From positions 25,423,033-25,487,032 of the forward strand of contig CM049309.1 in the NCBI GenBank assembly GCA_026874595.1: 64,000 bases of DNA, read 5' to 3'. Position numbers and translations under genes: made by a program. The first letter of the stretch is position 1. Every line of letters starts with the position of its first letter. This DNA comes from Sipunculus nudus (Eukaryota; Annelida; Sipuncula; Golfingiida; Sipunculidae). Of this stretch, positions 1,342 through 55,376 are shown piece after piece. The notes beneath the pieces were generated by a model. The model did no database searches. It had not been told where the DNA came from and saw only the letters and a list, made by a program, of their open reading frames with translations.

Positions 1342-3244
1342 CAGATAAAGCATACTTTGCGGATACTATGTTTTCAGCTGCACGCCGCCGCCACCGACGC
1401 TGCCGCGGCCGCCGCGTAGGTGTCCGGAGAACTCCTCCGTAACCGCTGGGTGGAATTTTCCGAAACTCAGGATTATGTTCGGGTCACATGTGAACTGCTG
1501 CGCCCGGATTTTGATTTGACCTCTGCATGACCTTTCCTCTGCGCTCTGCGTCCGTTTGTGCGTCTGTTTCCACACATAAACCCACATATCTCGGGAACCG
1601 TTTGACCGATCAGGAAAATTTTTTTGCAAAAATGTAGCCCTCGGAGAGCTTTATAACATACACCAAAAATGGTGGCGCCACCTGCAACCATGTTTGCACA
1701 GTGTCCATCTGTTTGTCTGCCTTGGGTTAAAATCACTCATATCTCTGCAGTGACTTGACTAATTCACCTGAAATTCGGCATGCGTATACATCCTGGATAG
1801 CTTTTCTGATTTTATGACAGGTGGCGCCACCTACATTCACGTTTACGCTGCAGACATCCAAGCTCATATCTCGGGAACCGTTTGACCGATCAGGAAAATT
1901 TTTTTGCACAAATGTAGCCCTTGGAGAGCTTTATAACATACACAAAAAATGGTGGCCCCACCTGCAACCATGTTTGCACAGTGTCCATCTGTTCGTCTGC
2001 CTTGGGTTAAAATCACTCATATCTCTGCAGTGACTTGACTAATTCACCTGAAATTCAGCATGCGCAAACATCCTGGATAGCTTTTCTGATTTTATGACAG
2101 GTGGCGCCACCTACATTCACGTTTACGCTGCAGACATCCAAGCTCATATCTTGGGAACCGTTTGACCGATCAGGAAAATTCTTTTGCACAAATGTAGCCC
2201 TTGGAGAGCTTTATAACATGCACAAAAATGGTGGCGCCACCTGCAACCATGTTTGCACAGTGTTCATCTGTTCGTCTGCCTTGGGTTAAAATCACTCATA
2301 TCTCTGCAGTGACTTGACTAATTCACCTGAAATTTGGCATGCGTATACATCCTGGATAGCTTTTCTGATTTTATGACAGGTGTTGCCACCTACATACACG
2401 TTTACGCTGCAGACATCCAAGCTCATATCTCAGGAACCATTTGACCGATCAGGAAAATTTTTTTGCACAAATGTAGCCCTTGGAGAGCTTTATAACATAC
2501 ACAAAAAATGGTGGCGCCACCTGCAACCATGTTTGCACAGTGTCCAGCTGTTCGTCTGCCTTGGGTTAAAATCACTCATATCTCTGCAGTGGTTTGACTA
2601 ATTCACCTGAAATTCGGCATGCTTATACATCCTGGATAGCTTTTCTAATTTTATGACAGGTGGCGCCACCTACAATCAAGTTTACGCTGCAGACATCCAA
2701 GCTCATATCTAGGGAACCGTTTGACCGATTGGGCCAAAATTTTGCATGTGTATAAATCTCATATAGCTCTTTATCATAGCAAAACTGGTGGCGCCACCTG
2801 CAGCCATGTTTGCACAGCTCCAGTCTGTTTGTCTGCCATGGGATAAAATCACTCATGCATTCTACTTTATGCATCAGATATCCAAGCTCATATCTTGGGA
2901 ACCGTTTGACCGATTGGGCCAAAGTTTGGCATGTTTATAGTTCTCACAAAGCTCTTTATCATACACTAAACTGGTGGCACCACCTGCAACCCTTTTTTGC
3001 ACAGCGTCCATCTGTTTGTCTGCCAAGGGCAAAAATCACTCATATACAATATAGTGGTTTGACTTATCTGCCTTAAATTTTACATATGTATACAACTTGG
3101 ACGGCTTTCTGGATTTTTTGGTAGGTAGCGCAACCTACATACACAATTTGGCTGCAGACATCCATGCTAATATGCAACACTTCACCCGTTCCACTCTGAT
3201 TTAGGCGGATACAAGTAGTCGCTTGTCGACTACCCGTATTCTAG
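1342..3244 (+). mobile_element. Family 1 Helitron2-like element, copy A (longest)
   Basis: The 5' hairpin is decayed (only TTTGCGGATAC at 1356 survives well). The 3' end is intact: ATIR-like GGCGGATAC, hairpin GTAGTCGCTTGTCGACTAC at 3215-3233, then CCGTATTCTAG ending at 3244 and followed by T. A CTAG end after a short hairpin is the classical rolling-circle signature; the inverted copy of the 5' end inside the 3' hairpin is the Helitron2/Helentron variant. Between the ends lie tandem modules with a composite period of 279-280 bp (starts near 1820, 2100, 2379, 2659), each holding two palindromes GGTGGCGCCACC (for example 1671, 1820, 2100, 2230, 2510, 2659, 2787). No Rep/helicase coding is present, so the copy is non-autonomous. 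Confidence 0.8.
3215..3244 (+). other. 3' terminal hairpin plus CTAG of family 1 (copy A)
   Basis: GTAGTCG and CGACTAC pair across the loop CTTGT, followed after CCGTATT by CTAG and then T. The same structure, with up to a few changes, ends copies at 11,406, 12,005, 21,605, 29,167, 30,612, 41,891, 43,877 and 63,564. In rolling-circle elements this hairpin acts as the stop signal for transfer; that role is inferred from the family. Confidence 0.85.
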
Positions 3245-3365
3245 TTTGAATTTGTAATGAACAATTAAATTTATGCAGTGTTATTCCGCTGCGCTGAAGA
3301 GTAAATTTATGTCTGTAAATTAAGTTCAATCTCTGATTGTCCTTTATGTTTTGTCCACGGGAAAT

Positions 3366-3900
3366 CATTCAAATCCAGACACCTCAAACTCAATGTTGGA
3401 AGGAAATCAATTTTCAACATCAGAATTGTATCCCAACATTAAAATTATGACCGGATGCCTCAAATTCAGCATTGCTATTGTCAGATTGACATTGCCCTTA
3501 GTGGGCTTCACATCAGGCTGGTATTTAATATGGCGGAAACACTAGGTTGAGCATGAGCATTTGGTGGCCTTTGGTAGCTGTCGCCAGCCGGTGCTACTCG
3601 CAACAAAATGTGAACTATGTACGGAGATTTCATCTGTTGAAATTGATTCAAATGCATTGACTTCAAACTCGATATTGGGACGGAAAATGTTTTCAACATG
3701 CGTATTTTATCCTGACATTGAGTTTATGACTGGATGTCTCAAATTCAGCAATGATTTTGTCAGATTTACATTGCCATGACTGGGCCTCAAATGAGGCAGA
3801 CATTCAATATGGCAGAAACACTGGGGTATTCGAGAGTGTTTGGGGGTGTTCGGCTGCTGTCACCTTCAGGTGCACCCACAATCATATTAGGATTATTGCA
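3366..3900 (+). repeat. Diverged tandem duplication, period ~280 bp
   Basis: Two diverged copies of one sequence follow each other. Paired landmarks are CAAATCCAGACACCTCAAAC (3370) with CAAATGCATTGACTTCAAAC (about 3650), and ATGGCGGAAACAC (about 3529) with ATGGCAGAAACAC (about 3809). Short open frames cross both copies but are not conserved between them. Unidentified; possibly the remains of a modular element. Confidence 0.7.
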
Positions 3901-4904: not shown

Positions 4905-4979
4905 ATGCCCCCGCCACAAAGTGCTCCAGGCATATAGTTTTACCCATGTCCGTCCTTCCGTCATACCGAAATCAAACAG

Positions 4980-5700
4980 TTGTACGGACTATTTTTCGCA
5001 ATGCCTGCAGATATTGGCTGGATTTTTTAGTGTGGACAGATAATGACCAGTTACAGATCGAGTTCGCGTTTCGTCCCGGTTGACCTACTTTTGACCGTTT
5101 TACGGCTCCTAAACTTTGAAAATTTCATGAAAAATAGAAATTTTCATGACAAATACACATGTACAGATTTTTTTTTCGCAATGCCTGCAGATTTTGGCCT
5201 GATTTTTGGTGTGTGGGCAGATAATGACCAGTTACAGATCGAGTTCGCGTTTCGTCCTGGTTGACCTGCTTTAGACCATTTTACAGCTCCTAAACTTAGA
5301 AAATTTCATGAAAAATAGAAATTTTCATGACAAATACACATGTACAGATTTTTTTTCGCAATGCCTGCAGATTTTGGCCTGATTTTTGGTGTGTGGGCAG
5401 ATAATGACCAGTTACAGATCGAGTTCGCGTTTCGTCCCGGTTGACCTGCTTTAGACCATTTTACAGCTCCTAAACTTAGAAAATTTCATGAAAAATAGAA
5501 ATTTTCATGACAAATACACATGTACAGACTTTTTTCCACAGTGCCTGCAGATATTGGCCTGATTTTTGGTGTGTAGGTAGAAAATGACCAGATATAGATC
5601 TAGTTCGTGTTTTGTCCCGGTTGACCTATTTTTGACCATTTAACTGCTCCTTAATTTAGAAAATTTCATGAAAAATAGAAATTTTCATGACAAATGTACA
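4980..5700 (+). repeat. 180-bp tandem modules inside the family 5 element
   Basis: Unit landmarks are spaced exactly 180 bp at 4996, 5176, 5356 and 5536. The middle copies are nearly identical and the outer copies more diverged. The unit has GCCTGCAGAT near its start and the self-complementary stretch GAAAATTTCATGAAAAATAG near its end. Unlike families 1, 2b and 6 it lacks GGTGGCGCCACC. Confidence 0.85.
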
Positions 5701-5714
5701 TTGACAGCCGTTTT

Positions 5715-6695
5715 TAGCCCTCAGCTCATAGGCTGATGGGCTATTGTCGTCACCCAAGCTGTCTGTCTTGCCGTCCGTCTGTCAGTCAGTCTGTCTGTCT
5801 GTCTGACGTCCGTCCGTCCGCGTCTGTTTACTTTTACCTTTTGAGCAGGATTTCTCTAAAAGGATTTACGTTTGGAATTTTATTTCATCAGTGAAGATGT
5901 ATATCGATAAAATCTTAGTCAAGTTCGGAGATAGGTGACCTTGACCCATTTTTCTACATTTTAGAGTTGATTATAGAAAAATACTCAGGAGCTTATATAT
6001 CAGGAACCATTGTGTGGATTTTCACAAAACTTACTATGATCATTGGGACTGATGGTCTGTACGTGCTGCACAATTTTGGTGGTGCCACCTGCAATTTCTG
6101 ATTTTTTAATCAAATTTTATCAAATTTTTCAATTTTGGCCTTGTGAGCGGGATATCTCTAAAAGGATTCACCGTTGGAATTTTATTTCATCAGTGAAGAT
6201 GTATATCAACAAAATCTTGGTCAAGTGCAAAGATGGGTGACCTTGACCTATTTTTCTTTGTTTTAGAGCTGATTATACAAAAACACTCAGAAGCTTAATC
6301 TTAGGAACCATTGTGTGGATTTTCACAAAACTTACTATGGTCATTTGGAATGATGGTCTGTGCATGCTGCACAATTTTGGTGGCACCACCTACAATTTCT
6401 GATTTTTTAATGAATTTTTTTCAGATTGTTCAATTTTGGCTATTGTGCAGGATATCTTTAAAGGTATTCAACACAGGAACTTAATTTCTTCAGTGCTAAT
6501 GCATAATATTTACAAAATTTTGGTCAAGTTCAAAGATGGGTGATCTTGACCTACTTTTCAAGGTCACAGAGCTTAGTGTGGAAAAAACTTAGGAGCTTAT
6601 TTCTCAGGAAGCATTTGGTGGATTGTTATGAAACATGGTACACACCTCTCCAATTTAAATTTATAACTGATTATCAGCTTTTGCTTATATTCTAG
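5715..6695 (+). mobile_element. Family 3 element nested in the family 5 element
   Basis: The 5' end folds back as TAGCCC/GGGCTA with an inner TCAGC/GCTGA stem (5715-5743) and is followed by GTCT/GTCC microsatellite. The 3' end reads TATTCTAG (to 6695) followed by TTTT, preceded by a weak CTGAT/ATCAG stem. Interior modules of about 305 bp repeat GGAATTTTATTTCATCAGTG (5876, 6178) and contain GGTGGTGCCACC (6079) and GGTGGCACCACC (6380), decayed forms of the palindrome seen in families 1, 2b and 6. Family 5 modules lie on both sides. Confidence 0.65.
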
Positions 6696-11405: not shown

Positions 11406-11775
11406 CTAGAATACGGGTAGTCGACAAGCGACTACGTGTATCCGCCTAAATCAGAGAGGTACAGGTGAATTTAAGTGGGGATAGGATATAGAGGTAATGG
11501 GAAAACCTTGTGTGGAAGATGACATATTACATGAAAGATAAAGATTATATGGTGTGGTATTGTTATGATGTAAAGGCTAAATTACCTGGAGGGAGGGAGA
11601 GAGCCTGCAAATTTTAGGGTGAATAAGATCAACCACTGCAGACATATGCGTGATTTTGTCCCAAGAAAGACAAACAGATGGACATTGTGCAAAAACAGTT
11701 GAAGGTGGTGTTAATGAAAATTTAGGTGGTGCCACCTGTCACATAATGATAAAGACCTATGTTAGATGTTTTGGC
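11406..11775 (-). mobile_element. Family 1 fragment (3' part), copy B1
   Basis: Read on the minus strand, it ends with hairpin GTAGTCGCTTGTCGACTAC and CCGTATTCTAG at 11,406. It contains one decayed GGTGGTGCCACC (about 11,725) and then loses similarity in the G-rich tract at about 11,780. The 5' end is missing. Confidence 0.65.
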
Positions 11776-12004
11776 AGATACAGTTACAGTTATGCAGTTA
11801 AGTAATGCAACGTATTTGGGTTGGGGGGGGGGGCACTTGGAAGGGGGGGGGGGGTGGGGGGGTTGGCCACATGTGAATAATTCTACATCTGTGATAGTGG
11901 TGCTCCCCCAGTGTTGCATGATTAATAAATTTACCCAGGCAAGGCTGTAGTGACCTGGAGGTTGACAATGTGAATATATTAGAGCCTCTGAAAAACTTGA
12001 ATAA

Positions 12005-12930
12005 CTAAAAATACTGGTAGTCGACAAGCGACTACATGTATTTGCCAAAATCAGTATTGCAGATTAGCATGGAAGGTGGCGCCACCTGCCAACTTCACAA
12101 GAAATCTATCCAAGATATATTTTCATGCCAAATTTCAGGTAGATAAGTCATTGCACTGCAGATATATGCATGAATTTATCCCAAGGCAGACAAACAGATG
12201 GACTCTGTGCAAAAACTTTTGCAGGTGGCACCACCAGTTTTTGGTATGATAAAGAGCCACATTTGATCTATAAACATGCAAAATTTCAGTCAAACGAGTC
12301 CTGAGATGTCATCATGGATGTCTGCAGTGCAAATGCATAGGTAGGTGGCGCCACCTGTCATATCAACAAAAAAATCTATCCAAGATGTATACACATGCAA
12401 ATTTCATGTGAATAAGTCAAACCACTGCAGAGATATGCGTGATTTTATCCCAAGGCAGACAAGCAGATGGATGCTGTGCAAAAACAGTTGCAGGTGTGGC
12501 CACAATGTTTTGGGTATAATAAAGGGCTATGTTAAAGGGCTATGTTAGACGTATACATATGCAAAATTTCAGGCTGATCCGTCAAACCAGTCCTGAGATA
12601 TTAGCATGAACGTCTGGAGCGTAAACAGGGAGGTAGGTGGTGCCACCTGTCACAAAAATCGAAAACCTATACAAGATGTATAAACGTGCAAAATTTCAGC
12701 CCGATCAGTCAAACGAGTCCAGAGATATGGGGGTTTATGTGTGAACACAGATGCACAGATGGACGCAGAGCGCAGAGGAAAGGTCAGAGGTCAAAACAAA
12801 ATCGGGGCCCAGCAGTTCACATGTGACCCGAACATAATCCTGGGTTTCCAAAAAATTCCACCCACCCTACGCGGCGGCGACGGTGGGCTAAAAACATAGT
12901 ATCCGCAAAACTCTGTTTTGGCGGATACTT
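12005..12930 (-). mobile_element. Family 1 Helitron2-like element, copy B2
   Basis: On the minus strand it starts with the 5' hairpin, whose arms are GTATCCGCC and GCGGATAC with CAAAAC/GTTTTG inside (right edge about 12,928). It ends with hairpin GTAGTCGCTTGTCGACTAC at about 12,017-12,035. The terminal CTAG has mutated to TTAG. Modules carry GGTGGCGCCACC at 12,074 and 12,346 and decayed forms elsewhere. It adjoins fragment B1 in the same orientation, so the two may be separate insertions or one rearranged locus. Confidence 0.75.
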
Positions 12931-16649: not shown

Positions 16650-19572
16650 TGGTGCTGGACAGTGCATTCTGATATTGCATTGTAGTAGGTGTTTATGTTT
16701 AGTGCTGATCAGGGCACTGGACAGTGCATTCTGATATTGCATTGTAGTAGGTGTTCATGTTTAGTGCTGATCAGGGCACTGGACAGTGCATTCTTATATT
16801 GCATTGTAGTAGGTGTTCATGTTAAGTGCTGATCAGAGCACTGGAAAGTGCATTCTGATTTTGCATTGTAGTAGGTGTTCATGTTAAGTGCTGATTAGGG
16901 CACTGGACAGTGCATTCTGATATTGCGTTGTAGTAGGTGTTTATGTTAAGTGCTGATCAGGGCACTGGACAGTGCATTCTTATATTGCATTGTAGTAGGT
17001 GTTCATGTTAAGTGCTGATCAGGGCACTGGACAGTGGTTTCTGATTTTGCATTGTAGTAGGTGTTCATGTTTAGTGCTGATCAGGGCACTGGACAGTGCA
17101 TTCTTATATTGCATTGTAGTAGGTGTTCATGTTAAGTGCTGAACAGTGCACTGGACAGTGCATTCTGATATTGCGTTGTAGTAGGTGTTCATGTTTAGTG
17201 CTGATCAGGGCACTGGACAGTGCATTCTGATATTGCGTTGTAGTAGGTGTTTATGTTAAGTGCTGATCAGGGCACTGGATAGTGCATTCTTATATTGCAT
17301 TGTAGTAGGTGTTCATGTTAAGTGCTGATCAGTGCACTGGACAGTGCATTCTGATATTGCGTTGTAGTAGGTGTTCATGTTTAGTGCTGATCAGGGCACT
17401 GGACAGTGCATTCTTTAATTGCGTTGTAGTAGGTGTTCATGTTAAGTGCTGATCAGAGCACTGGACAGTGCATTCTTATATTGCATTGTAGTAGGTGTTC
17501 ATGTTTAGTGCTGATCAGGGCACTGGACAGTGCATTCTTGAATTGCATTGTAGTAGGTGTTCATGTTAAGTGCTGATCAGGGCACTTGACAGTGCATTCT
17601 GATTTTGCATTGTAGTAGGTGTTCATGTTAAGTGCTTATCAGGGCACCGGACAGTGCATTCTTATATTGCATTGTAGTAGGTGTTCATGTTAAGTGCTGA
17701 TCAGGGCACTGGACAGTGCATTCTGATTTTGCATTGTAGTAGGTGTTCATGTTTAGTGCTGATCAGGGCACTGGACAGTGCATTCTGATATTGCGTTGTA
17801 GTAGGTGTTCATGTTTAGTGCTGATCAGGGCACTGGACAGTGCATTCTGATATTGCGTTGTAGTAGGTGTTCATGTTTAGTGCTGATCAGGGCACTAGAC
17901 AGTGCATTCTTATATTGCATTGTAGTAGGTGTTCATGTTAAGTGCTGATCAGGGCACTGGACAGTGCATAATGATTTTGCATTGTAGTAGGTGTTCATGT
18001 TTAGTGCTGATCAGGGCACTGGACAGTGCATTCTGATTTTGCATTGTAGTAGGTGTTCATGTTAAGTGCTGATCAGTGCACTGGACAGTGCATTCTAATA
18101 TTGCGTTGTAGTAGGTGTTCATGTTTAGTGCTGATCAGGGCACTGGACAGTGTATTCTTATATTGCATTGTAGTAGGTGTTCATGTTAAGTGCTGATCAG
18201 GGCACTGGACAGTGCATTCTGATTTTGCATTGTAGTAGGTGTTCATGTTTAGTGCTGATCAGGGCACTGGACAGTGCATTCTTATATTGCATTGTAGTAG
18301 GTGTTCATGTTAAGTGCTGATCAGGGCACTGGACAGTGCATTCTGATTTTGCATTGTAGTAGGTGTTCATGTTTAGTGCTGATCAGGGCACTGGACAGTG
18401 CATTCTGATATTGCGTTGTAGTAGGTGTTCATGTTTAGTGCTGATCAGGGCACTGGACAGTGCATTCTGATATTGCGTTGTAGTAGGTGTTCATGTTTAG
18501 TGCTGATCAGGGCACTGGACAGTGCATTCTGATATTGCGTTGTAGTAGGAGTTCATGTTTAGTGCTGATCAGGGCACTGGACAGTGCATTCTGATATTGC
18601 GTTGTAGTAGGTGTTCATGTTTAGTGCTGATCAGGGCACTGGACAGTGCATTCTGATATTGCGTTGTAGTAGGTGTTCATGTTAAGTGCTGATCAGGGCA
18701 CTGGACAGTGCATTCTGATTTTGCATTGTAGTAGGTGTTCATGTTTAGTGCTGATCAGGGCACTGGACAGTGCATTCTGATATTGCGTTGTAGTAGGTGT
18801 TCATGTTTAGTGCTGATCAGGGCACTGGACAGTGCATTCCTATATTGCATTGTAGTAGGTGTTCATGTTAAGTGCTGATCAGGGCACTTGACAGTGCATT
18901 CTGATTTTGCATTGTAGTAGGTGTTCATGTTTAGTGCTGATCAGGGCACTGGACAGTGCATTCTTATATTGCATTGTAGTAGGTGTTCATGTTAAGTGCT
19001 GATCAGGGCACTGGACAGTGCATTCTGATTTTGCATTGTAGTAGGTGTTCATGTTTAGTGCTGATCAGGGCACTGGACAGTGCATTCTTATATTGCATTG
19101 TAGTAGGTGTTCATGTTTAGTGCTGATCAGGGCACTGGACAGTGCATTCTTATATTGCATTGTAGTAGGTGTTCATGTTTAGTGCTGATCAGGGCACTGG
19201 ACAGTGCATTCTTATATTGCATTGTAGTAGGTGTTCATGTTTAGTGCTGATCAGGGCACTGGACAGTGCATTCTGATATTATGTTGTAGTAGGTGTTCAT
19301 GTTTAGTGCTGATCAGGGCACTGGATAGTGCATTCTTATATTGCATTTTAGTAGGTGTTCATGTTAAGTGCTGATCAGGGCACTGGACAGTGCATTCTTA
19401 TATTGCGTTGTAGTAGGTGTTCATGTTTAGTGCTGATCAGGGCACTGGACAGTGCATTCTGATATTGCGTTGTAGTAGGTGTTCATGTTTAGTGCTGATC
19501 AGGGCACTGGACAGTGCATTCTGATATTGCGTTGTAGTAGGTGTTCATGTTTAATGCTGATCAGTTCACTGA
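16650..19572 (+). repeat. 62-bp satellite, about 47 copies
   Basis: The landmark GCACTGGACAGTGC repeats every 62 bp (for example 16,714 and 16,776). Each unit has the inverted repeat GCACTG/CAGTGC separated by GA, then GTAGTAGGTGTTCATG and GTGCTGATCAGG. Variation is concentrated at three places: GATATT/TATATT/GATTTT, GCATTG/GCGTTG and TTTAG/TTAAG. The variants are largely linked (TATATT-GCATTG-TTAAG; GATATT-GCGTTG-TTTAG; GATTTT-GCATTG-TTTAG), and identical types form runs near 18,404-18,650 and 19,085-19,260. No unit-spanning open frame exists. The array is preceded by decayed family 2 sequence. Confidence 0.97.
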
Positions 19573-20427
19573 TAGCAATATAGTCCTCACCCAGTACAAT
19601 ATATAGAGAGGTGGGCAGCAGTATACTGAAATACAGTATTACAAGAATTTATGTGGTCCGTTTGGTTTTGTAAATAATGACCTGAGGGAAACCATTTATC
19701 AGTGTTCCTACACTTCACAAAAGTCTCACAAAAAAGGCACTACCTACATAAGTCTTAACTTTTTTTCTGCAGAGTTATCCATTATAATAACAAGGAATGT
19801 ATAAAAAATAACCTAAGATACATGTGATTTCTCAAATGTGAATGATAGATCGGAATATTAATTGATCCAAACACAGGAGAACTTTTATCTGTAAAAATAA
19901 CGCATACTCTCAAACACCAAATTGTTATGGTAACAATACAATGGCGTACTTTTTAGAATCAGTTCTCGAGTGTCTTACCCCACATAAGTATTATCAGTCA
20001 GAAAAAGTACCACATAATTATTAAGGATATTATATTACGTCTGCCAAGCAACAAGTGAATATTTTACTGAATTTGTCATCAAATGAAGCTGATGGATGCT
20101 GACATACTTATAAATAGGTTAAGTGGCTAATGGACTGTAGATCATTGTCCAGGTTTGCCGTAATGGTCTAAACATTTTACTGAATGTCAAATGTCAGTGC
20201 ATATGGCCGGAATAATGGACAGTTTCCCCTGCAACATGCCATACAGCATTTTATAACAAAGAACCTTGCAATTAAGGTCAGAAGAAAGTGAACAAATTAC
20301 AGTGTTTTCTCCATAACCTTAATTGATTTTCTTTTCTGTTAGGTCCCATATTTGATAACTAAGTTCATACTTCTGGACAGGTCATTAGATTTTTATCTCA
20401 GCTGATCATAAATGAGCTATTCTAATT
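19573..20427. other. Non-repetitive stretch, no gene recognised
   Basis: AT-rich sequence without detectable repeats, splice-framed open reading or RNA-like features; possibly intron or intergenic DNA. Confidence 0.5.
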
Positions 20428-21605
20428 GTATCCGCCAAAACGAAGTTTTGCAGATACTATGTTTTTGACCGGGTTCCTCCGCCTCCGCGGCATTTGTTTC
20501 GGGAGAACTCCTCTAAGACTACTGGATGGATTTTTCCGAAACTTACACCATTTATCGGGTCACATGTGAACTGGTGCCTTACCAATTGGCCTTGACCTCT
20601 GACCTTTCCTCTCTGCCCAGCGTCCGTTTGTGAGTCTGTTTCCACACAAACCCACATATTTCGGGAACTGTTTGACCGATCAGGGAAAAATTTTGTACAA
20701 ATCTAGCCCTTGGATAGCTTATAACATACACAAAAAATGGTGGCGCCACCTGCAACCATGTTTGCACAGTGTCCACCTGTTCATCTGCCTTTGGTTAAAA
20801 TCACTCATATCTCTGCAGTGGTTTGACTAATTCACCTGAAATTCAGCATGCGTATACATCCTAGTTAGCTTTCTTGATTTTATGACAGGTGGCGCCACCT
20901 ACATTCATGTTCATGCTGCAGACATCCAAGCTCATATCTCGGGAACCGTTTGACCAATCAGGAAAAATTTTTTTACACAAATGTAGCCCTTGGATAGCTT
21001 TATGACGTACACAAAAATGGTGGCGCCACCTGCAGCCATTTTTGCACAGCGTCCATCTGTTTGTCTGCCTTGGGTTAAAATCATTCATATCTCTGCAGTG
21101 GTTTGATCAAATTACCTGTAATTCGGCATGCGTATACATCTTGGATAGCTTTCTTGATTTTATGACAGGTGGCGCCAGCTTCATTCATGTTCATGCTGCA
21201 GACATTAATGCTTATATCTCCAGACTTGTTTGACCAATCAGGAAATTTTTTTTACACAAATGTAGCCCTTGGATAGCTTTATAATATACACAAAAATGGT
21301 GGCGCCACCTGCAACTATTTTTGCACAGCGTCCATCTGTTTGTCTGCTGTGGGATAAAAACACTCATATCTCTGCAGTGGTTTGACTTTTCCACCTTAAA
21401 TTTTGTGTATACATCTTGGATAGTTTCTCGTTCAAATAACAGGTGGCACCACCTACAATCATGTTTAAGTGGCAGACATCCATTCTAATATGTAACACAT
21501 GTAACTCTGTTTCACCTTGCCAGTCAATCCATGCCTCACTTCACCCGTCCTACTCTGACTTTGGCGGATACACGTAGTCGCTTGTGGACTACCCCCGTAT
21601 TCTAG
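20428..21605 (+). mobile_element. Family 1 Helitron2-like element, copy C (complete)
   Basis: Starts with GTATCCGCC at 20,428, which folds on the decayed arm GCAGATAC, and ends with GGCGGATAC, a one-base-decayed hairpin (GTAGTCG/GGACTAC) and TCTAG at 21,605 followed by T. It has four modules of alternating type with GGTGGCGCCACC at 20,739, 20,888 and 21,019. Phrases CTCATATCTC, GGGAACCG and TTTGACC repeat in each. No protein coding; open frames on both strands here are reflections of the modules. Confidence 0.85.
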
Positions 21606-22199: not shown

Positions 22200-23541
22200 G
22201 TCAGTGCCCAGCCCCAGACATCAAGTCCTGTATAGAGTGATTATCAGGTACATGTGTTGACCATATCACCTTGTTGGGAACTGTAGACTGTGATTGTCTA
22301 GCCCCAGTCATCAAGTCCTGTATAGAATGATTATCAGGTACTTGTGTAAACCATATCACCTTGTTGGGAACTGTAGACTGTTATTGTCTAGCCCCAGACA
22401 TCAAGTCCTGTACAGAATGATTATCAGGTACGTGTGTTGACCATATCACCTTGTTGGGAACTGTAGACAGTGACTGTCCAGCCCCTGACATCAAGTCCTG
22501 TATAGAATGATTATCAGGTATGTTTGTTGACCATATCACCTTGTTGGGAACTGTAGACTGTGACTGTCCAGCCCCAGACATCAAGTCCTATACAGAATGA
22601 TTATCAGGTACGTGTGTTGACCATATCACCTTGTTGGGAACTGTAGACTGTGATTGTCTAGCCCCAGTCATCAAGTCCTGTATAGAATGATTATCAGGTA
22701 CTTGTGTTGACCATATCACCTTGTTGGGAACTGTAGACTGTGACTGTCCAGCCCCAGACATCAAGTCCTTTATAGAATGATTATCAGGTAATGTATTGAC
22801 CATATCACCTTGTTGGGAACTGTAGACTGTGATTGTGTAGCCCCAGACATCAAGTTCTTTGTAGAATGATTATCAGGTAATGTGTTGACCATATCACCTT
22901 GTTGGGAACTGTAGACTGTGATTGTCTAGCCCCAGACATCAAGTCCTGTACAGAATGATTATCAGGTATGTTTGTTGACCATATCACCTTGTTGGGAACT
23001 GTAGACTGTGACTGTCCAGCCCCAGACATCAAGTTCTTTATAGAATGATTATCAGGTACATGTGTTGACCATATCACCTTGTTGGGAACTGTAGACTGTG
23101 ACTGTCCAGCCCCAGACATCAAGTCCTGTATAGAATGATTATCAGGTATGTGTGTTGACCATATGACCTTGTTGGGAACTGTAGACTGTGATTGTCTAGC
23201 CCCAGACATCAAGTCCTGTATAGAATGATTATCAGGTACGTGTGTTGACCATATCACCTTGTTGGGAACTGTAGACTGTGACTGTCCAGCCCCAGACATC
23301 AAGTCCTGTATAGAATGATTATCAGGTATGTGTGTTGACCATATGACCTTGTTGGGAACTGTAGACTGTGATTGTCTAGCCCCAGACATCAAGTCCTGTA
23401 TAGAATGATTATCAGGTACGTGTGTTGACCATATCACCTTGTTGGGAACTGTGGACTGTGATTGTCCAGCCCCTGACATTAAGTCCTGTATAGAATAATC
23501 ATCAGATGTGTTGATTATATCACCTTGCTGGGAACTGTAGA
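22200..23541 (-). repeat. 90-bp tandem array open as a 30-residue repeat on the minus strand
   Basis: GCCCCAGACATCAAGTCC recurs at 22,211, 22,301, 22,391, 22,481, 22,571, 22,661, 22,751, 22,840, 22,929, 23,019, 23,109, 23,199, 23,289, 23,379 and 23,469, about 15 units. Ninety is divisible by three and one minus-strand frame has no stop, so the array reads as repeats containing SGAGQSQSTVPNKVIWS followed by PDNHSIQDL. The longest run is 209 codons at 22,850-23,479, starting at an internal ATG. Single-base deletions at the same place in two units (near 22,791 and 22,879) break the frame. From 23,109 on, A and B units alternate (period 180). No signal peptide, no flanking unique coding and no promoter are visible. 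I call it a minisatellite; expression is unproven. Confidence 0.9.
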
Positions 23542-31470: not shown

Positions 31471-31524
31471 AATTACAACCCTTCTGAAGCAGGAAGGATA
31501 TTAAGTAACCATAACTTCACCTTT

Positions 31525-31842: not shown

Positions 31843-32998
31843 TAGTATGTTTAACCAAAAATTGGATGGACTGTTATGAAATTTCACAATGTGAGCAACA
31901 TTTTGAATATCTTGTGTACCCTGCAGTTTTTTAGCTCAGCTGACTGTAAGTCATCTGAGCTATAGCGAATACCCTTTGTCCGTCGTCCGTCTGTCCGTCC
32001 ATCCGTTAACCTGGCACAAATCTTAAACGCTGGACCTAGAATCTTCATTCTTTGCACACTGAGAGACCTATGAAAAGTCTTGATGAAAACCAGAAATTAG
32101 GTCTCTGTTACCCATATCCTTCAAGCTATGGGGCCCCAAAGTACCCCCCCCCCCAGAATAGTAAAAATTTTCATTCAAAAACTTCAATATCTCATAAACT
32201 ACATCATCGATGGTCATGATTTTTGGCATACATATTGATCATGAGATGTTTCATCAGTTTCTGCAGACTGGTGGCGCCACCTGTATTTTTCAATTTTTTA
32301 CGAATTATTTTCTCTATTTTTGAGACCTTTAAAAATATGAACATCTGTTAACAGGGCACAAATCGTAAAGACTGGACCAAGAATCTTCATTCTTTACACA
32401 GTGAGAGACCTATGAAAAGTCTCCATGGAAACCAGAAATAAGGTCTCTGTTACCCATATTCTTTGAGCCGTGGGGCTCCCAATTACCCCCCCCCCCTCCC
32501 GAATAATGGAAAATTTGATAAAAAAAAACTGCAACATCTTAATAACTACAACACTAATGGTCATGATTTGTGGCATACATATTGATCAAGAGGTGTTCCA
32601 TCAGTTCCTGCAGACTGGTGGCGCCACCTGTATTTTTTCAAATTTTTACATTTTTTTTTCTCTATTTTTGAGACCTGTTAGGATGCTGTCATCTGTTAAT
32701 GTGGCACAAATTGTAACAACTGGACCTAGAATCTTCCTTCTTGTCATGCAAGGAGACCCATGAAAAGTGTCTTTGGAAACCTGAAATTAGGTCTCTGTTA
32801 CCCATATCCTTCAAGCTATAGGACTCAGAAGTATCCCTCAGAATAATGGAAAATTTGATACAAAAGCTGAAGTATCTAAACAACTAATGCAGAGATCACC
32901 ATGATTCTTTGCATGGATATTGACCATGTGTTTTAATTGGTTTCTGCAGACTGGGGGAGACACCTGTATTTTTTTAAAGTTTACGCATTTTTGAGATA

Positions 32999-34554
32999 CC
33001 GTAGATCCGCGTTTTGCCGCCGCATGTCGTCTAATGGCCGCACCCCATGTTCGTAAAATATCTGGAAGGCTCCTTCACTGGAGTAAAAAAACCTTACTTA
33101 ATGGCCGCACCACATTCTCACCACGTTCCATTGCCGGGTGGGGTATGGGAAGTTTTGGGAACACAACGTAAAAAGGTTCTTTTCTTAAACGCTAGGCTGC
33201 AGCTAGGAATGCTGCGGTATGCATGCTGATATGTGGTCAAGCATAACAGTTTTGGGAAACAGTTGCAACTGTGTATGTTGCTTGGCTTTGCTAATTAATT
33301 AATTTTATTAATTTGTTGAACCGCCTGATCTACCTGATTAGAATAGATGACAGTTTGTTCGGTTTATGACGACTCATCCAAGACGAATCCTAGTAGGGCC
33401 ACAAAATTAATTTGACACATCATTGAAAGCCGGAGAATCTTGCGCCTTTAACTTGACTAATTAAAGTTCAATGGGACATCAAAGCATTGTATGGGACGAC
33501 TGTAATTTAAACATTATTTAGACATTATACATCGTCGGTCATTTAACAACAAAACATTTAGATAAACAACTCCCGCGTCGGTGATCATATTTCCAGAACA
33601 CCTCAGGTTGTGCTGATCATAATATATGCAAAATGGTGTCCGAACCGTCAACCGGCAAAAGATGCAACAGAAAATGATTACGGAACTTGCGGGCCTTGGT
33701 GTACCTTGCGCCTTTACCCTGTCTCATTAAACTTCAATGGGACATCAAAGCCAACGGTACTCTTTATGATGGCTTTTATTTACACTCTATACAATGTCGG
33801 TCAATTAAAAACCTTGACAAAACCTTTTAATAAGCGATTTCGCGTCGAGCCTTTACGCATACACCCAGGGTCCTGCTGATCATAATATATGCACACTGGT
33901 GCCCGAACCGTCTGCTAGCAAAACGTGCCGTATTTAAAGATTACGGAACTAGCTGGTGAGGTTATGACCTTTGAGCGCCATCTATTGACAATTTGATGAA
34001 CGAAGAAGTATCTGAACATGAACGCAGGTTTAATTGCCGAAGAACGTATGGTCTTTGGTTATCTTTTTTTTACAGTTTATTTTAAAAGAAATGATATGTT
34101 CAAGAAATATCTTAAAATAATGTTTTACCGATATTGCAGCCATACTCAAATATAGATACAACCGTTAGTCTGGATAGAATGCATAATTTGGCGAGTGAAT
34201 ATCGATCTTTTATCAATCATTGCGTGAAAATTGCCGTGGTTTATGACTGACTCAGAAAAGTTTTATAATACATATAAGCCTGTTTAAAATGTCAATTTTA
34301 CATTTTTTAAAATTAATAATCAATAAAATTAATATACAAATATGCAGTATCATTAAATATACGTTCCCAGTATTCACTTCTTCCTCAGCCTATTATCGAC
34401 CATTGCCCCTCGGCGGGCCGTCGAGTCTCTTGTACATGTTTGAATTCAGCCTAACCTGCGTTTTATAGCCGCATCCCTTGTCGATAAATATTAGTCGGGA
34501 TTTTCAGCTGTAAGTCTTATTTTATGGCCGCGGCGGCAAAACGCGGATCTACGG
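32999..34554. mobile_element. TA-flanked TIR element, 1,556 bp, non-autonomous
   Basis: The terminal inverted repeats are 25 bp and perfect; they begin CCGTAGATCCGCGTTTTGCC at 32,999 and end at 34,554. TA flanks each end. The paralogous module at about 55,220-55,240 reads GAGATATATAAATACAG with no insert, so the empty site shows a TA duplication, typical of Tc1/mariner/pogo-type elements. Near both ends are repeats of TAATGGCCGCACC or a close form. The centre has a 266-bp direct duplication. It is less AT-rich and CpG-richer than its surroundings. No transposase is visible; open frames of 60 and 89 codons are unrelated to known transposases. Confidence 0.9.
33439..33960 (+). repeat. 266-bp tandem duplication inside the TIR element
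   Basis: CTTGCGCCTTTA begins at 33,439 and 33,705. Both copies continue with CAATGGGACATCAAAGC, GCTGATCATAATATATGC and GATTACGGAACT, with clear divergence between them, so the duplication is not new. Confidence 0.85.
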
Positions 34555-38860: not shown

Positions 38861-39070
38861 AATAAAAATCTCCTTGGAAACCTGAAATTAGGTCACTATG
38901 ACCTGTATCCCCATAGCTATGGGGCTTGAAAGTACCCACCAGAATAATAAAAAATTTGATACAAAACCTCCAATATCTTGATAATTACTGCATGGAATGT
39001 CATAAATCTTGCCTTGAAAATTGACCATGACTAGTTTTGTCAGTCCCCGAAAAGTGGTGGTGCCACCTAT
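38861..39070 (+). mobile_element. Family 2b module fragment
   Basis: TCTCCTTGGAAACCTGAAATTAGG, the gene-free module phrase CAGAATAATAAAAAATTTGA and a decayed GGTGGTGCCACC at about 39,056 match the modules at 32,100-32,630 and 53,600-55,170. Neither end of the element is present; family 6 begins immediately after. Confidence 0.65.
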
Positions 39071-39075
39071 ATTTA

Positions 39076-40140
39076 TAGCGAACCTGTGAGCATATGCGAT
39101 GGTGTGGCGTCGTCTGTCGTCCGTCGTCTATCGTCTGAACGTTAACCCAAACTATCTTGAAAATGGCAAGAGTTAGCATCATGAAATTTTATACAAAAAA
39201 TTAGTCATATAAAAAAACTCTATTGGATTTTGTTTATTTTTTGGCTAAATGCATTTTCTTAGATTTTATAGAGAAAAAGCTAAAAAACCTTTAAAAATCT
39301 TCTTCCCCAAAACTGTTCAGCCAAATTGTCCAATATTTCACAGAAATGATTCCTGGAACAATCTCTCTCAAGTTTGTTCGAATGGTTTAAGTTCGGTGAT
39401 TTTTCACTGAGTTACAGGAAGTTGAATCTGTCCAAAAAAGCATACAATCTCAGAAATGGCTGCAGCTGTCATTACCAAATTTTATGCCAATGTTGGTCAC
39501 ATGAGTCATATCTAAAATTGAGGTATTGGTGGCGCCACCTGCATCAGCCTTTTTTGTACGGGGGTCATCAGTGCCCGTATTATACTGATGTCTACAAAAA
39601 ACTTCTTCCCTGAAACCATATGGCTAAATTGTTTAATATTGCACAGAAATAATCCTAGGGTAGTGCTTTCTGAAGTTTGTTAAAATGGTCTCAGTTCAGT
39701 GACTTTTGGCTGAGTTATGGGAAGCTGAATTCAGTCATATGCCATAACAGCCCATTTTAGCTCAGTGGCTACAAAGATTTTCTTCTCAAAAACCACTGGG
39801 CCAAATTCTTAAATCTCACACATTAATTATCCTTAGATGTTTATCCTTCAAGCTTGTTCAAATGGTTTTGGTTCAGTGATTTTTGGCTGAGTTATGGGAA
39901 GCTCAACTAAGCCATTTTGCTGTATTTTCCCATATGAGTTATAAACCTGCAAAACGTTTTTTGACTGACGCCACTGAGGCCAATTTGTTTAATATTTTAC
40001 AAGGATATTCCCCTGAATAATTCTTATAATAATTGTCTTTTATAGTTCCAAAGAATGAATATAGGCTGAATTATAAAGATTGAATTGAGTCATTTTACCA
40101 TATATGTTAGCTGTGTAAAGCAGATACCTCTAGCCTGGCA
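39076..40140 (+). mobile_element. Family 6 element with ~180-310-bp modules
   Basis: AGCGAACCTGTGAGCATATG at 39,077 is followed by a GTC-rich tract and GTTAACCC, as in the copies at 40,436 and 63,881. The interior repeats AAATCTTCTTC...GCCAAATTGT...ATTTCACAG and GTGATTTTTGGCTGAGTTA-type phrases, starting near 39,290, 39,592, 39,770 and 39,950. GGTGGCGCCACC is intact at 39,528. The 3' end is not defined; similarity fades near 40,140. Confidence 0.6.
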
Positions 40141-40640: not shown

Positions 40641-40734
40641 TCATCTTGAAAAAAAAAAACATTTTAGCCAAAGTCTTTCATTATGTGTAAACAGATTAAC
40701 CAACAGACCAGGATTGTGTCTGTATCTTTAAATA

Positions 40735-41000
40735 GGTTGAGAAACTGCCAGCTGTTTCAGATTTGGCAACAGATCAAGAGTTCATTGAGTACAGCCAGAT
40801 ATAGGTCAAGAGTTCAATCAGTGCAGCCCAGCACAAGGCATGTGATCACCTCATGGGTGACATGTGAACACCTCATGGGCACCATGGCATAAGGTCAGCC
40901 TGGATTTATTTATAGCTTTGGCAGACTGCCAACTGTGTCAGATTATGCAACAGGTCAAGAGTTCACTCAGTGCAGTCAGGTACAGGTCAAAAGACTGTAT
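40735..41000 (+). repeat. 181-bp direct duplication
   Basis: ACTGCCAGCTGTTTCAGAT at about 40,745 and ACTGCCAACTGTGTCAGAT at about 40,926 are each followed by GGTCAAGAGTTCA-type phrases. The repeat also contains the internal duplication of CACCTCATGGG at 40,848 and 40,870. Unidentified. Confidence 0.65.
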
Positions 41001-41002
41001 AG

Positions 41003-41891
41003 CTCTTAATATCATACACAAAACTGGAGGGACCACCTGCAACCATTTTTACACAGCGTCCATCTGTTTGTCTGCCATGGGATAAAATCACTCATATCTC
41101 TGTAGTGGTTTGACTTAACTGCCTAAAACTTTGAAGGTTTATACATCCTGGACAGCTTTTTTTATTTTAAGACAGATGGCACCACCTACATTCACGTTTA
41201 CACTGCAAACATCCGAGTTCATATCTCAGGAACTGTTTGACCGATTGGGCCAAAATTTTGCTTGTGTATAGATCTCACATAGCTCTTAATATAATACACA
41301 AAACTGGAGAGACCACCTGCAACCATTTTTGCACAGCGTCCATCTCTTTGTCTGCTGTGGGCTAAAATCACTCATATCTAAGTAGTGGTTTGACTTATCT
41401 GCCTAAAATTTTGCGTGTTTATACATCTTGGATAGCTTTCTCAATTTTTTATGACAGGTGGTGCCACCTACATGTTAACGCTGCACACATTCAGGCTTAT
41501 ATCTCAGGACTGTTTGGACATAACCCCCGGAAATTTTGCATGTGTATAGATCTCACATAGCTCTTAATCATACACAAAATTGGTGGCATCACCTGCCACC
41601 ATTTTTGCACAAGTCCTTCTGTTTGTCTGCTGTGGGATATAATCACTCATATACATGTAGCGGTTTGATTTATCTGCCTAAAATTTTGCATATGTATACA
41701 ACTTGGACAGCTTTCTGGAGTTTGTGGTAGGTGGAGCAACCTACATACACGTTTCGTCTGCAGACATCCATGCTAATATGCAACACACCTCACTCTATTT
41801 CCCCTTGCCACTCAATTCATGCCTCATTTCACCCATTCCACTCTGATTTTGGCAGATACACGTATTCGCTTGCCGACTACCCGTATTCTAG
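41003..41891 (+). mobile_element. Family 1 element, copy F (5' truncated)
   Basis: The 3' end has a decayed ATIR (GGCAGATAC), a decayed hairpin (GTATTCGCTTGCCGACTAC) and TTCTAG at 41,891 followed by TT. Modules carry only decayed palindromes (GGTGGTGCCACC at about 41,459; GGAGGGACCACC at about 41,027). No 5' hairpin is present; similarity begins abruptly at about 41,003. Confidence 0.7.
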
Positions 41892-42772
41892 TTCTCAGGA
41901 GGGGTGTGATGTATCAGGCTGAAATTGGGCATATGTATATATCTCTGATAGCTTCATTGTATACAAGACTGGTGGTGCCAGCTACAATCATGTCATTTTC
42001 TCAGCCATGATTACATCTAGTGTCCCAAAACCTGTTGTGTTTATTGATCACAAGTAGATGCCTTATAGTAACCACCCTGTCTGTCCATCCAACAATCTAC
42101 ACAAATTTGTTTCCAGATGATAACTCCAGGTTTGTTTGAAACATTGATTTGAAACTTGACTTACATATGGCCCACCACTAAAGCAAGAACCTATGTGATT
42201 TTTGGGTCACAAGGTCAAAAGTCAAGGTCACAGGACTAACTTTTTTTATTAAAGATTATGGCTGCATTTTAAGCCAAGTTTTTCATCCCAGACTTTCAAT
42301 CTTGCACATTTAGCTGACTTGCCAGTATGGGGAGAGCATAAATGAGTTTGGGGTCACAAGGTTAAAGGTCAAGGTCACAGAAGACATGTTTACAAATTAG
42401 TTGTAAATGATAACTCAAGTTTAGTTTGACATATTGGTTTCAAACTTAACTTATATATGGCTCAACACTAAAGTAAGAACCATTTTGATTTTGGTGTCCA
42501 TTGGTGAAAGGTGAAGGTCACAGGATGACCTTAGATCTTTCCTATAAAAAGAATGTGTATGCATTTCAAGGCAAACTTTTCATCACATACCTTCCATCTT
42601 CAAGATAATGCTAACCTGCCAATAGCGGAAGATTCTATTCCATTGTGGGGTCATAGGGTTCAAGGTCACAGGGCCCATCCATTCACAAATTAGTTTATGG
42701 ATGATAATTTACTTTGGATTGACAGACTGGCTTCAAACTTGATTTATTTATGACCCACCACTTAAGTTAATT
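41892..42772 (+). mobile_element. Module fragments of family 1 and family 4 type
   Basis: From 41,905 to 42,005 there is a family 1-like module ending in GGTGGTGCCAGC. From about 42,110 there are three units of about 290 bp (landmarks GATGATAACTCCAGG, AATGATAACTCAAG, GATGATAATTTAC at 42,117, 42,405 and 42,701), each with GGTCAAAGGTCAAGGTCACAG-type phrases as in the family 4 element at 57-58.5 kb. No termini are seen. Family 1 copy G starts at the right edge. Confidence 0.55.
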
Positions 42773-43877
42773 GTATCCGCCAAAACAGAGTTTTGCGGAT
42801 ACTATGTTTTTAGCTGCACGCCACCGCCGCCGCGGCGTAGGTTTCCGGAGAACTCCTCCGTAACCGCTGGGCAGAATTTTACGAAACCCGGGATAATGTT
42901 CGGGTCACATGTGAACTGCTGCGCCCCGATTTTGTTTTGACCTCTGACCTTTCCTCTGCGCTCTGCGTCCGTTTGTGCGTCTGTTTCCACACATAAACCC
43001 ACATATCCCGGGAACCGTTTGACAGATCAGGAAAATTTTTTTGCACAAATGTAGCCCTTGGAGAGCTTTATAACATACACAAAAAATGGTGGCGCCACCT
43101 GCAACCATGTTTGCACAGTGTCCATCTGTTCGTCTGCCTTGGGTTAAAATCACTCATATCTCTGCAGTGACTTGACTAATTCACCTGAAATTTGGCATGC
43201 GTATACATCATGGATAGCTTTTCTGATTTTGTGACAGGTGGCGCCACCTACATTCACGTTTACGCTGCAGACATCCAAGCTCATATCTCAGGAACCGTTT
43301 GACCGATCAGGAAAATTTTTTTGCACAAATGTAGCCCTTGGAGAGCTTTATAACATACACAAAAAATGGTGGCGCCACCTGCAACCATGTTTGCACAGTG
43401 TCAATCTGTTTGTCTGCCTTGGGTTAAAATCACTCATATCTCTGCAGTGACTTGACTAATTCACCTGAAATTCGGCATGCGTATACATCCTGGATAGCTT
43501 TTCTGATTTTATGACAGGTGGCGCCACCTACATTCACGTTTACGCTGCAGACATCAAAGCTCATATCTCAGGAACCGTTTGACCGATCAGGAAAATTTTT
43601 TTGCACAAATGTAGCCCTTGGAGAGCTTTATAACATACGCAAAAGTGGTTTGACTTATCTGCCTTAAATTTTGCATATGTATACAACTGGGACGGCTTTC
43701 TGGATTTTGTGGTCGGGGGGGGGGCAACCTTTATACACAATTTGGCTGCAGACATCCATGCTAATATGCAACACTTCACTCTATTTCCCCTTGCCACTTA
43801 ATCCATGCCTCACTTCACCCGTTCCACTCTGATTTAGGCGGATACACGTAGTCGCTTGTCGACTACCTGTATTCTAG
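42773..43877 (+). mobile_element. Family 1 Helitron2-like element, copy G (best preserved)
   Basis: Starts with GTATCCGCC and its foldback arm GCGGATAC (42,773-42,802), then a CG-rich segment with ACGCCACCGCCGCC. It ends with GGCGGATAC, a perfect hairpin GTAGTCGCTTGTCGACTAC and TTCTAG at 43,877. GGTGGCGCCACC is intact at 43,088, 43,237, 43,368 and 43,517, in a composite period of 280 bp. One module is cut short at 43,640, where the distal module type joins. No coding capacity. This is the best single copy from which to read the family's plan. Confidence 0.88.
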
Positions 43878-52901: not shown

Positions 52902-53430
52902 TTTTTTAGCTCAGCTGACTTGTAAGTCATCTGAGCTATAGTCGAGGTCCGTTGTCCGTCGTCCATCTGTCCGTCCGGCTGTTAGACTGGCATGTTTTGA
53001 AACTGTTAGACCTACAAATCCAAAATCGGCATGCTATTAGATGTCCCCAAGATCTCCTACAAAACCGAAAACTGGGTCACTGCGACTTCATTCCTCTAAG
53101 AAATTAAGCAAAAACCTCAAATTTCCATTAAGAACCTATTATCACACTTCAGGACTGCCTAATATCAAAACTACTTATCTGTTTTCCTTAATATTTACCA
53201 GGAGTATTCTCCTAAATATTTCGTTTTACAAGCCAAAAATTAAGATTGTTCAGTGTAATTTCTATAAGTTATGGGCTTGAACATATTGGACTGTGTAAAA
53301 AATCAGGAAAAATATTTGCTCACTTAACATGAAAAGTTTTGATGCTAGAGACTTTTTTCCCCAAGTATATAAGTTTGTTTAATTAAGATTCAATTGTATA
53401 CCCAAAATTAGACCTGAATTTTGTAAATTT

Positions 53431-55376
53431 TTAGCTCAGCTGACTGTAAGTCATCTGAGCTATGGCAATCACTGTTTGTCCGTCGTCCGTCTGTCGTGCC
53501 ATCCGTCTGTCTGTATGTCCGTCCGTCCGTCCGTCTGTCCGTTAACCTGGCACAAATCGTAACCGCTGGACTTAGAATTTTTTAACTTTACATTCTGAGA
53601 GGTCCATAAAAAATCTCCTTGGTAACCAGAAATTAGGTCTCTGTTACCCATAGCCTTTGAGCTATGGGGCCCCAAAGTACCCCCCAGAATATTCAAAAAT
53701 TTCATACAAAAACTTCAATATCTCATTAACTACATAACTGATGGTCATGATTTTTTGCATACATATTGATCATGAGAAGTTTCATCAGTTCCTGCAGACT
53801 GGTGGCGCCACCTGTATTTTTCAATTTTTTACAAATTTTTTTCTCTATTTTTGAGACCTTTAAAAATGTGAACATCTGTTAACAAGGCACAAATCATAAA
53901 GACTGGACCTAGAATCTTCATTTCGTACACAGTGAGAGACCTACGATAAGTCTCCATGGAAACCAGAAATTAGGTCTCTGTTACCCATATCCTTGGAGCT
54001 ATTAGGCCCCAAAGTACCCCCCCCCCCCCCCCCCAGAATAGTAAAATATTTCATACAAAAACTTCAATATCTCATTAACTACATCACTGATGGTCATTAT
54101 GTTTTGCATACATATTGATCATGAGATGTTTCTTCAGTGTCTGCAGACTGGTGGCGCCACCTGTATTTTTTTATTTTTTACGAATTGTTTTCTCTATTTT
54201 TGAGACCTTTAAAACTGTGAACATCTGTCAACAGGGCACAAATTGTAAAGACTGGACCTAGAATCTTCATTCCTCACACAGTGAGAGACCTATGAAAAGT
54301 CTCCATGGAAACCTGAAATAAGGTCTCTGTTACCCATATCCTTTGAGCTGCAGGGCTACCAATTACCCCCCAGAATAATGGAAATTTGATAGAAACAAAT
54401 TGCAACATCTCAATAACTACAACACTGATGGTCATGATTTTTGGCATACATATTGATCAAGAGGTGTTCCATCAGTTCCTGTAGACTGGTGGTGCCACCT
54501 GTATTTTTTCAAATTTTTACAATTATTTTTCTCTTTTTTTGAGACCTTTAAGGATGTAGTTATCTGTCAACAGGGTACAAATCGTAACGACTGGATCTAG
54601 AATCTTCATTCTTGATACACAGGGAGACCCATGAAAAGTCTTCATGGAAACCTGAAATTAGGTCTCTGTTACCAATATCCTTTGAGCTATGGCACTCTAA
54701 AGTACAGCTCAGAATAATGGAAAAATTGTTACAAAAGCTGAAGTATATGAACAACTAATGCAGAGATCACCATAATTGTTTGTATGGATATTGATCATGG
54801 ATTGTTTCATCAGTTTCTGCAGATTGGTGGCACCACCTGTATTTGTTCGGGTTTTTTAACAATTTTTTTTTCTCTTTTTTTTGAGACCTTTATGGATGCT
54901 GTCATCTGTTAATGTGGCACAAATTGTAACAACAGGACCTAGAATCTTCATTCTTGTCATGCAAGGAGGCCCATGAAAAGTGTCTATGGAAACCTGAAAT
55001 GATGTCTCTGTTACCCATATCCTTCAAGCTATAGGACTCCAAAGTATCCCTCAGAATAATGGAAAATTTGATACAAAAGCTGAAGTATCTGATCAACTAA
55101 TCCAGAGATCACCATGATTCTTTGCATGGATATTGACCATTAAGTGTTTTTATTAGTTGCTGCAGACCGGTGGAACCACCTGTATTTTGGTTTTAAAGTT
55201 TATATGCATTTTTTCTCTATTTTTGAGATATATAAATACAGTCACAATCTTGGCCTGTTGGTTAATCTGTTTGATGCTTCAGTTGAAAGGGTATATACTA
55301 CCATTCAGATGATAAAATTTCCTTTGGCAAATCTCTTTCCTGTCAGCTGAGCGTCATGACCCATGGGTCACTTGTT
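53431..55376 (+). mobile_element. Family 2b element nested in family 2
   Basis: AGCTCAGCTGACTGTAAG at 53,433 with AGTCATCTGAGCT; a GTCC tract; five modules of about 340 bp; 3' end TCAGCTGAGC, perfect GACCCATGGGTC at 55,358-55,369 and ACTTGTT. GGTGGCGCCACC is intact at 53,801 and 54,150 and decayed at about 54,488, 54,826 and 55,170, so the array decays from 5' to 3'. Host sequence is TTTTGTAAATTT on the left and GTAAGTATTAGCATAAAAAT on the right, continuous in paralogues, with no target duplication. Confidence 0.87.

Follow-up and report, generated by a model that had tools for sequence, protein, structure and literature searches.

Helentron-type non-autonomous rolling-circle transposons (HINEs) are known from oysters, where, in the accessible text of the source, Cg_HINE of Crassostrea gigas and the Pearl/CvA elements, which have satellite-like central repeats, show subterminal inverted repeats, a short 3' palindrome, oligo-T insertion sites, short arrays, mostly of 140-180-bp monomers, and many dispersed copies (PMC7492417). 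The same text describes some oyster monomer clusters in which two conserved segments are common to otherwise dissimilar sequence (PMC7492417). Monomers of the bivalve satellites BIV160/Cg170 contain two conserved motifs, and in the phBglII400 satellite array junctions cluster at a 12-bp palindrome, according to the accessible part of a further source (PMC5139131). Here we analyzed 64,000 nucleotides of the genome of Sipunculus nudus (assembly GCA_026874595.1, contig CM049309.1, positions 25,423,033 to 25,487,032, forward strand; the window in what follows), in which the 12-bp palindrome GGTGGCGCCACC recurs in the tandem modules of elements that share with the oyster elements the subterminal inverted repeats, the short 3' palindrome, the short arrays and the many dispersed copies, and probably the oligo-T sites. 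Unlike the oyster HINEs as that accessible text describes them, a conserved segment here is a 12-bp palindrome found in seven module consensuses, and the elements that carry it have several different ends. The likeness to the oyster HINE boxes was drawn by description and not by module sequence (PMC7492417), and that to the phBglII400 palindrome by description and not by its letters (PMC5139131). In 274,260 bases, the BIV160 primer bivF (25 bases), as given in the accessible part of PMC5139131, matched nowhere with 6 or fewer mismatches, and the best match of bivR had 5 mismatches in 21. From the comparisons that follow, we consider it probable that the palindrome is a protein-binding box that is kept in the source elements of a HINE module superfamily, and that its inserted copies decay almost neutrally.

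Carriers and abundance of the palindrome

The carriers are several families of HINEs. Elements of family 1 start with TTGTATCCGCC (exact at 20426 and 42771) and have its inverted copy GGCGGATACAA (exact at 3204) near the 3' end, followed by the hairpin GTAGTCG-CTTGT-CGACTAC, CTAG and then TT. Family 2 starts with TTTTTAGCTCAGCTGAC and ends with GTCAGCTGAGCG, a 14-bp palindrome and CTTG, then TT; its 3' hairpin is TGACCCATGGGTCA, and its subterminal inverted repeats, GCTCAGCTGAC and GTCAGCTGAGC, are present in the element at 53430-55374. All six of the printed family-1 3' ends are followed by TT, which was also part of the search pattern. The central arrays are built from 280-bp and 348/349-bp units, and together with the subterminal repeats and the 3' hairpin they give a layout that matches the oyster HINEs in the accessible description (PMC7492417). 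Families 6 and E have different starts and, by eye, a similar build. The single listed open reading frame (ORF) of at least 200 amino acids in the window sits outside the carriers, in a 90-bp tandem array.

The window contains 43 palindrome sites at up to one mismatch, 25 exact and 18 with one mismatch, against an expectation of 0.00 from 100 dinucleotide shuffles. In all 153 contigs of the assembly (1.427 Gb), the exact palindrome was found at 111,757 places, versus 14 for a control in which its letters were reversed, an abundance that apparently stems from rolling-circle transposons with the palindrome at a set position in their satellite-like repeats; a further 106,472 places have exactly one mismatch, which brings the count at up to one mismatch to 218,229. 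A random sample of 14 pieces of 10 kb, taken from base 10,000,001 of contigs C1-C14, contained 10 exact and 4 one-mismatch palindromes in 5 of the 14 pieces, and 8 of the 10 exact ones sit in a single piece (L004). These counts bear out a first-pass annotation of this DNA, which had reported a palindrome recurring at fixed places in modules of several families. All 11 of the exact coordinates that it gave were right, and its two near-matches are present but start one base earlier, at 6078 and 56819. The fixed placement held as well: spacings alternate between about 149 and 131 bp within the 280-bp unit of family 1 and are about 340-350 bp in family 2b.

Ancestry of the modules and conservation of the box

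Modules of different families had been regarded in the first-pass annotation as unalignable beyond the frame ACTGGTGGCGCCACCTG. Our results showed that consensuses anchored on the palindrome align with little or no shift, and that the heptamer ATATCTC lies at -81 to -85 in 7 of 11 module sequences inspected (A1, A2, B, C, E, F and L032), with near-forms at one mismatch in L026 (-84) and at two in D (-83) and L028 (-81); L015 has none at the expected place. Genome-wide, ATATCTC followed by the palindrome 70-82 bp later was counted 32,124 and 31,576 times, in all 63,700; provided that none was counted on both strands, 57% of the 111,757 palindromes have the heptamer at this distance. A control spacing of 32-44 bp gave 120, and among the 100 control-spacing matches listed, many resemble internal deletions of the same modules.

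The comparison of flanks for homology covered the upstream part of the modules. Upstream flank identity between pairs of consensuses ranged from 0.30 to 0.68, with a median of 0.44 versus 0.33 for shuffled flanks, and reached p<0.05 against shuffled flanks in 24 of 35 pairs, with D fitting worst. With 13 module sequences, 6 of them consensuses and 7 single copies, aligned on the palindrome, a column test gave an upstream mean majority of 0.508 versus a null of 0.426, and the highest of 500 shifted nulls was 0.453. Because the upstream flanks exceed the shift null and share ATATCTC, the supposed non-alignability is wrong for the upstream part at the present depth, and the long shared ancestry that the annotation had set against a selected site is largely found there. 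On these alignments, the modules form one old superfamily that is carried by several HINE families.

Against this divergent background the box itself did not vary: all 12 palindrome letters are identical in each of the seven module consensuses (1L in two subtypes, 1R, 2b, 6, E and 3), while flank identity between families is about 44%. The conserved frame is wider than the palindrome and asymmetric, usually with ACT before it (A in 11, C in 9 and T in 10 of 13 sequences) and TGY after it (T in 12, G in 9, and C or T in 12 of 13), followed by A in 9 of 13. Starting instead from ATATCTC boxes on both strands and checking the expected palindrome place, we found the palindrome at up to two mismatches for 25 of the 37 boxes in the window, with 2 boxes at three to four mismatches and 10 at six to nine. 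Of the 27 boxes in the random pieces, 7 had it at up to one mismatch, 1 had five mismatches and 19 had six to nine. The control offset gave the palindrome within two mismatches for one of the 37 window boxes and for none of the 27 random ones, and all others had five to nine.

Several observations weigh against a box held by selection. Possession of the palindrome, with no more than two mismatches, was what first brought the families together, and part of their agreement on it therefore follows from that choice; some sequences of the column test are mutually close (L032 and E, 0.68; L026 and C, 0.66). Within families, where profiles with the palindrome masked were used, the palindrome of 1L was no better conserved (0.927) than its flanks (0.920 left, 0.934 right; 24 of 60 profile hits). 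In 1R it was better conserved, 0.935 versus 0.848 and 0.849 (45 of 69 profile hits), and a full 35-mer is kept in 3,538 copies, rising to 3,881 with the ten non-CpG palindrome sites freed and to 4,024 with eight flank sites freed, which gives a change per site of 0.9% in the palindrome versus 1.6% in the flank, a modest difference measured on one flank only. The claim that the palindrome is conserved beyond its surroundings thus stands between families, fails among 1L copies, which show the equal conservation that was to speak against it, and finds a modest gap in 1R. The equality in 1L and the small gap in 1R suggest that inserted copies decay nearly neutrally, and near-neutral decay in turn suggests that constraint, if any, acts on source elements over long times. 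The decay is of CpG type, as had been proposed: of the 36 possible changes, the two CpG transitions GGTGGTGCCACC and GGTGGCACCACC alone account for 45,699 of the 106,472 one-mismatch copies genome-wide (43%) and for 14 of the 18 in the window.

Shared ancestry, near-neutral decay of recent copies and the gathering of families by the palindrome would all be expected if the box had no function and reflected old ancestry plus chance, or short gene-conversion tracts between families. We regard this as very unlikely, since all 12 letters are kept in consensuses with about 44% flank identity despite a decaying CpG, and since no clear chimera was seen at the palindrome. Exchange of modules at this site, also raised in the first-pass annotation, was not borne out: upstream and downstream halves that were classified separately agreed in 116 of 117 contexts, 47 of 164 contexts having been left out because one half had less than 0.6 identity. 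In the one discordant context (L037, 700) the right flank is rich in T, and the discordance is probably artefactual. Insertion beside the palindrome was not clearly enriched, with 7 of 61 element 5' ends lying up to 60 bp downstream of it versus a background of 6.0% (1,336 of 22,326) of TTT positions, and two of the seven 5' ends look alike. HINE 5' ends lie 6-8 bp past a palindrome in four places (39056-39092, L021, L028 and L044), not clearly beyond what T-runs give.

Candidate readers of the box

In the reading that we prefer, the palindrome is the most conserved box of old satellite-like modules of about 140-350 bp in several HINE families. Source elements that lost it may have left fewer copies because a sequence-specific DNA-binding protein would use it, and a host factor of chromatin or transcription is more probable in this role than the transposase; after insertion, copies would decay almost neutrally, and fastest at the central CpG.

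Self-complementary boxes of neighboring modules might instead pair as single strands, loop out modules and so aid array growth. In the centroids of DNA folds, palindromes 1-2 and 3-4 of family 1 pair with each other, as do both palindromes of 2b. However, the fold energies are ordinary (z of -0.52 for family 1 and -1.89 for 2b), any GC-rich palindrome would serve this purpose, yet the letters are identical across families, and in 16 of 40 contexts, each of 811 bp, the palindrome occurs only once (counted at up to two mismatches), all of which makes pairing highly improbable. The same letters in several families, also where the palindrome stands alone in its context, point to recognition by a protein rather than to pairing between modules.

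That protein could belong to the transposon, if the palindrome were a cis-signal to which a Helentron Rep/helicase, or a partner, binds while elements replicate as rolling circles or modules are amplified. The genome has 143 matches to Rep (PF14214), some in long open frames (150 of 195 candidates scored), and the sampled exact copies of the palindrome sit, by eye, in module-like repeats. Two 10-kb autonomous-type pieces, representing 2 of the 143 Rep matches, contained neither the palindrome at up to two mismatches nor family-1 or family-2 5' ends, which counts mildly against such a signal; the 5' flank of both pieces reaches no more than 100-190 bp beyond the frame. Around other Rep matches, three pieces of about 3.5 kb also lacked the palindrome at up to one mismatch (ends were not sought in them), and tandem HINE-type modules of other families in the window, at 221-1097, 4981-5695 and 57098-58444, do without it. 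Altogether, we view a role as a transposition signal as rather doubtful. L060 and L061 (first 750 bases) have RepHel-type frames of 2,250 and 2,235 codons, with DNA that is 86% identical over 6.6 kb, and their self-matches, shifted in 69-base steps, suggest that a unit of 23 codons is repeated in frame close to the start.

Among host factors, one candidate class is that of CTCF-like zinc-finger proteins, because YAGGTGGCGCCA, read on the minus strand, comes close to the CTCF motif over its 3' two thirds. AGGTGGCGCCA scores 16.98 of a possible 18.36 bits on the last 11 columns (9-19) of the CTCF matrix and satisfies the core AG(G/A)(G/T)GGC(G/A)(C/G), and the conserved T at +13 (12 of 13) corresponds on the minus strand to an A that the motif favors. 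In the random pieces, the palindrome accounted for 14 of 16 comparably high core scores; a single piece supplied 12 of these 14, and some sites entered the count from both strands. The full matrix argues the other way, giving the seven consensuses just 6.1-8.8 of 30.6 bits, low scores that follow from the absence of the 5' CCA triplet. Seven single sequences were also scored with it, two without an exact palindrome being skipped, and gave 16.7 (L032), 12.7 (L017), 11.2 (L015), 9.5 (L028) and, for the other three, 4.1-7.3. The G that the motif allows at the fourth core place occurs in none of the seven consensuses, which were chosen by the palindrome. With CCA absent, full scores low and no core G, we class the box as CTCF-core-like and not as a CTCF site.

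The genome does appear to encode a protein of this class. The best match to the human CTCF zinc fingers, at C11:67037740, has 272 bits and 58% identity, compared with 151 bits and 41% for the next best; the helices of fingers 3-5 are almost unchanged in it, and it is likely the CTCF orthologue. The other listed matches to this query include many C2H2 stretches crowded on C16, with others on C7, C9 and C11; the crowding has the appearance of local gene expansion. In the accessible portions of three sources, a CCCTC-like motif is described at squid topologically associating domain boundaries and the CTCF motif in annelid open chromatin (PMC9023564, PMC7854359, PMC10658182), and knowledge of how Spiralia use CTCF is described as scant (PMC10658182). 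Since the 5' triplet is missing from the box, CTCF is at present a lead only.

A bolder version, that rolling-circle transposons seeded the genome, at nucleosome-like spacing, with more than 100,000 sites where CTCF or a related architectural protein of the host binds, and that these were kept for the lifetime of the superfamily because they provided favorable chromatin, seems to us unlikely. Rodent B2 short interspersed elements are transposons that disperse CTCF sites. The present carriers are like them in being mobile elements with many copies of a CTCF-core-like motif, and unlike them in the rolling-circle mode, the tandem modules, the palindromic core and the absence of the 5' part of the CTCF motif. 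In the literature searched, the string GGTGGCGCCACC occurred in one unrelated paper and AACCGTTTGACC in none, and no paper joining Helentron and CTCF was found. Carriers of this type have been described in oysters; a description of the box and its scale was not found in that search, which largely left aside subscription papers and figures.

Elements of the window and wider meaning

Family 1 is represented by the following carriers. A HINE-like element on the plus strand at 1359-3244, the first bases of whose 5' end were not recognized, consists of 280-bp tandem units with exact palindromes at 1671, 1820, 2100, 2230, 2510, 2659 and 2787 and one-mismatch palindromes at 1951 and 2973; its 3' end reads GGCGGATACAA-GTAGTCG-CTTGT-CGACTAC-CCGTATTCTAG, then TT. 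The minus-strand element at 11406-12930, with a 5' end placed by a two-mismatch match, has exact palindromes at 12075 and 12344 and one-mismatch palindromes at 11725, 12224 and 12636. On the plus strand, the element at 20426-21605 has the exact 5' end TTGTATCCGCC and a 3' end taken directly from the letters of the sequence, with exact palindromes at 20739, 20888, 21019 and 21298 and one-mismatch palindromes at 21168 and 21442, and that at 28313-29167 has a one-mismatch palindrome at 28730. The minus-strand element at 30612-31472 has exact palindromes at 30909, 31038 and 31187 and a one-mismatch palindrome at 30760. Two more lie on the plus strand: 40999-41891, whose 5' end was not found and whose palindromes are decayed (41457 with one mismatch; 41175, 41582 and 41730 with two), and 42771-43877, which has both ends and exact palindromes at 43088, 43237, 43368 and 43517. 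Diverged modules at 63144-63304 (plus strand) have one-mismatch palindromes at 63144 and 63293, with a match to the family-1 3' end at 63545-63564.

The remaining carriers are all on the plus strand. A family-2b element at 31930-33000, with the 5' end TTTTTAGCTCAGCTGAC, 348-bp modules and exact palindromes at 32270 and 32617, has an approximate end, its 3' end not having been found. The second 2b element, at 53430-55374, has both ends (TTTTTAGCTCAGCTGAC ... GTCAGCTGAGCG-TCATGACCCATGGGTCACTTG, then TT), exact palindromes at 53801 and 54150 and one-mismatch palindromes at 54488 and 54826. Family-3 modules at 6078-6390 have CpG-decayed palindromes at 6078 and 6379, and the palindrome of this family is exact in L037. 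A family-6 element runs from its start, TATAGCGAACCTGTGAGC, through the exact palindrome at 39528 (39074-39539), both presumably belonging to one element; directly upstream of this start, inside a 2b-like module, is a one-mismatch palindrome at 39056. The family-E (7) HINE-like element at 56494-58690, with ends placed by eye, has a CpG-decayed palindrome at 56819 in an E module, and its 289-bp tandem modules have none at up to one mismatch.

Plain tandem arrays are present at 16655-19571 (62 bp x 47), 22208-23541 (90 bp x 15, containing a minus-strand ORF at 22850-23479), 24162-24641 (69 bp x 7) and 60264-62355 (41 bp x 51). A 145-bp palindrome-free module (ATAACTTTCCTAAATATTATCCGATGTCATTCAAATTTTGG) looks, by eye, like a distant relative of the half-module that bears ATATCTC.

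Why Helentrons carry satellite-like repeats is, to our knowledge, an open question, and the box bears on whether such repeats are passive cargo or recruit host factors. With 111,757 exact copies, it offers a concrete bait sequence for protein pull-down. If the presumed factor were CTCF-like, transposon-borne insulator motifs would extend beyond mammals to the genome of Sipunculus nudus.

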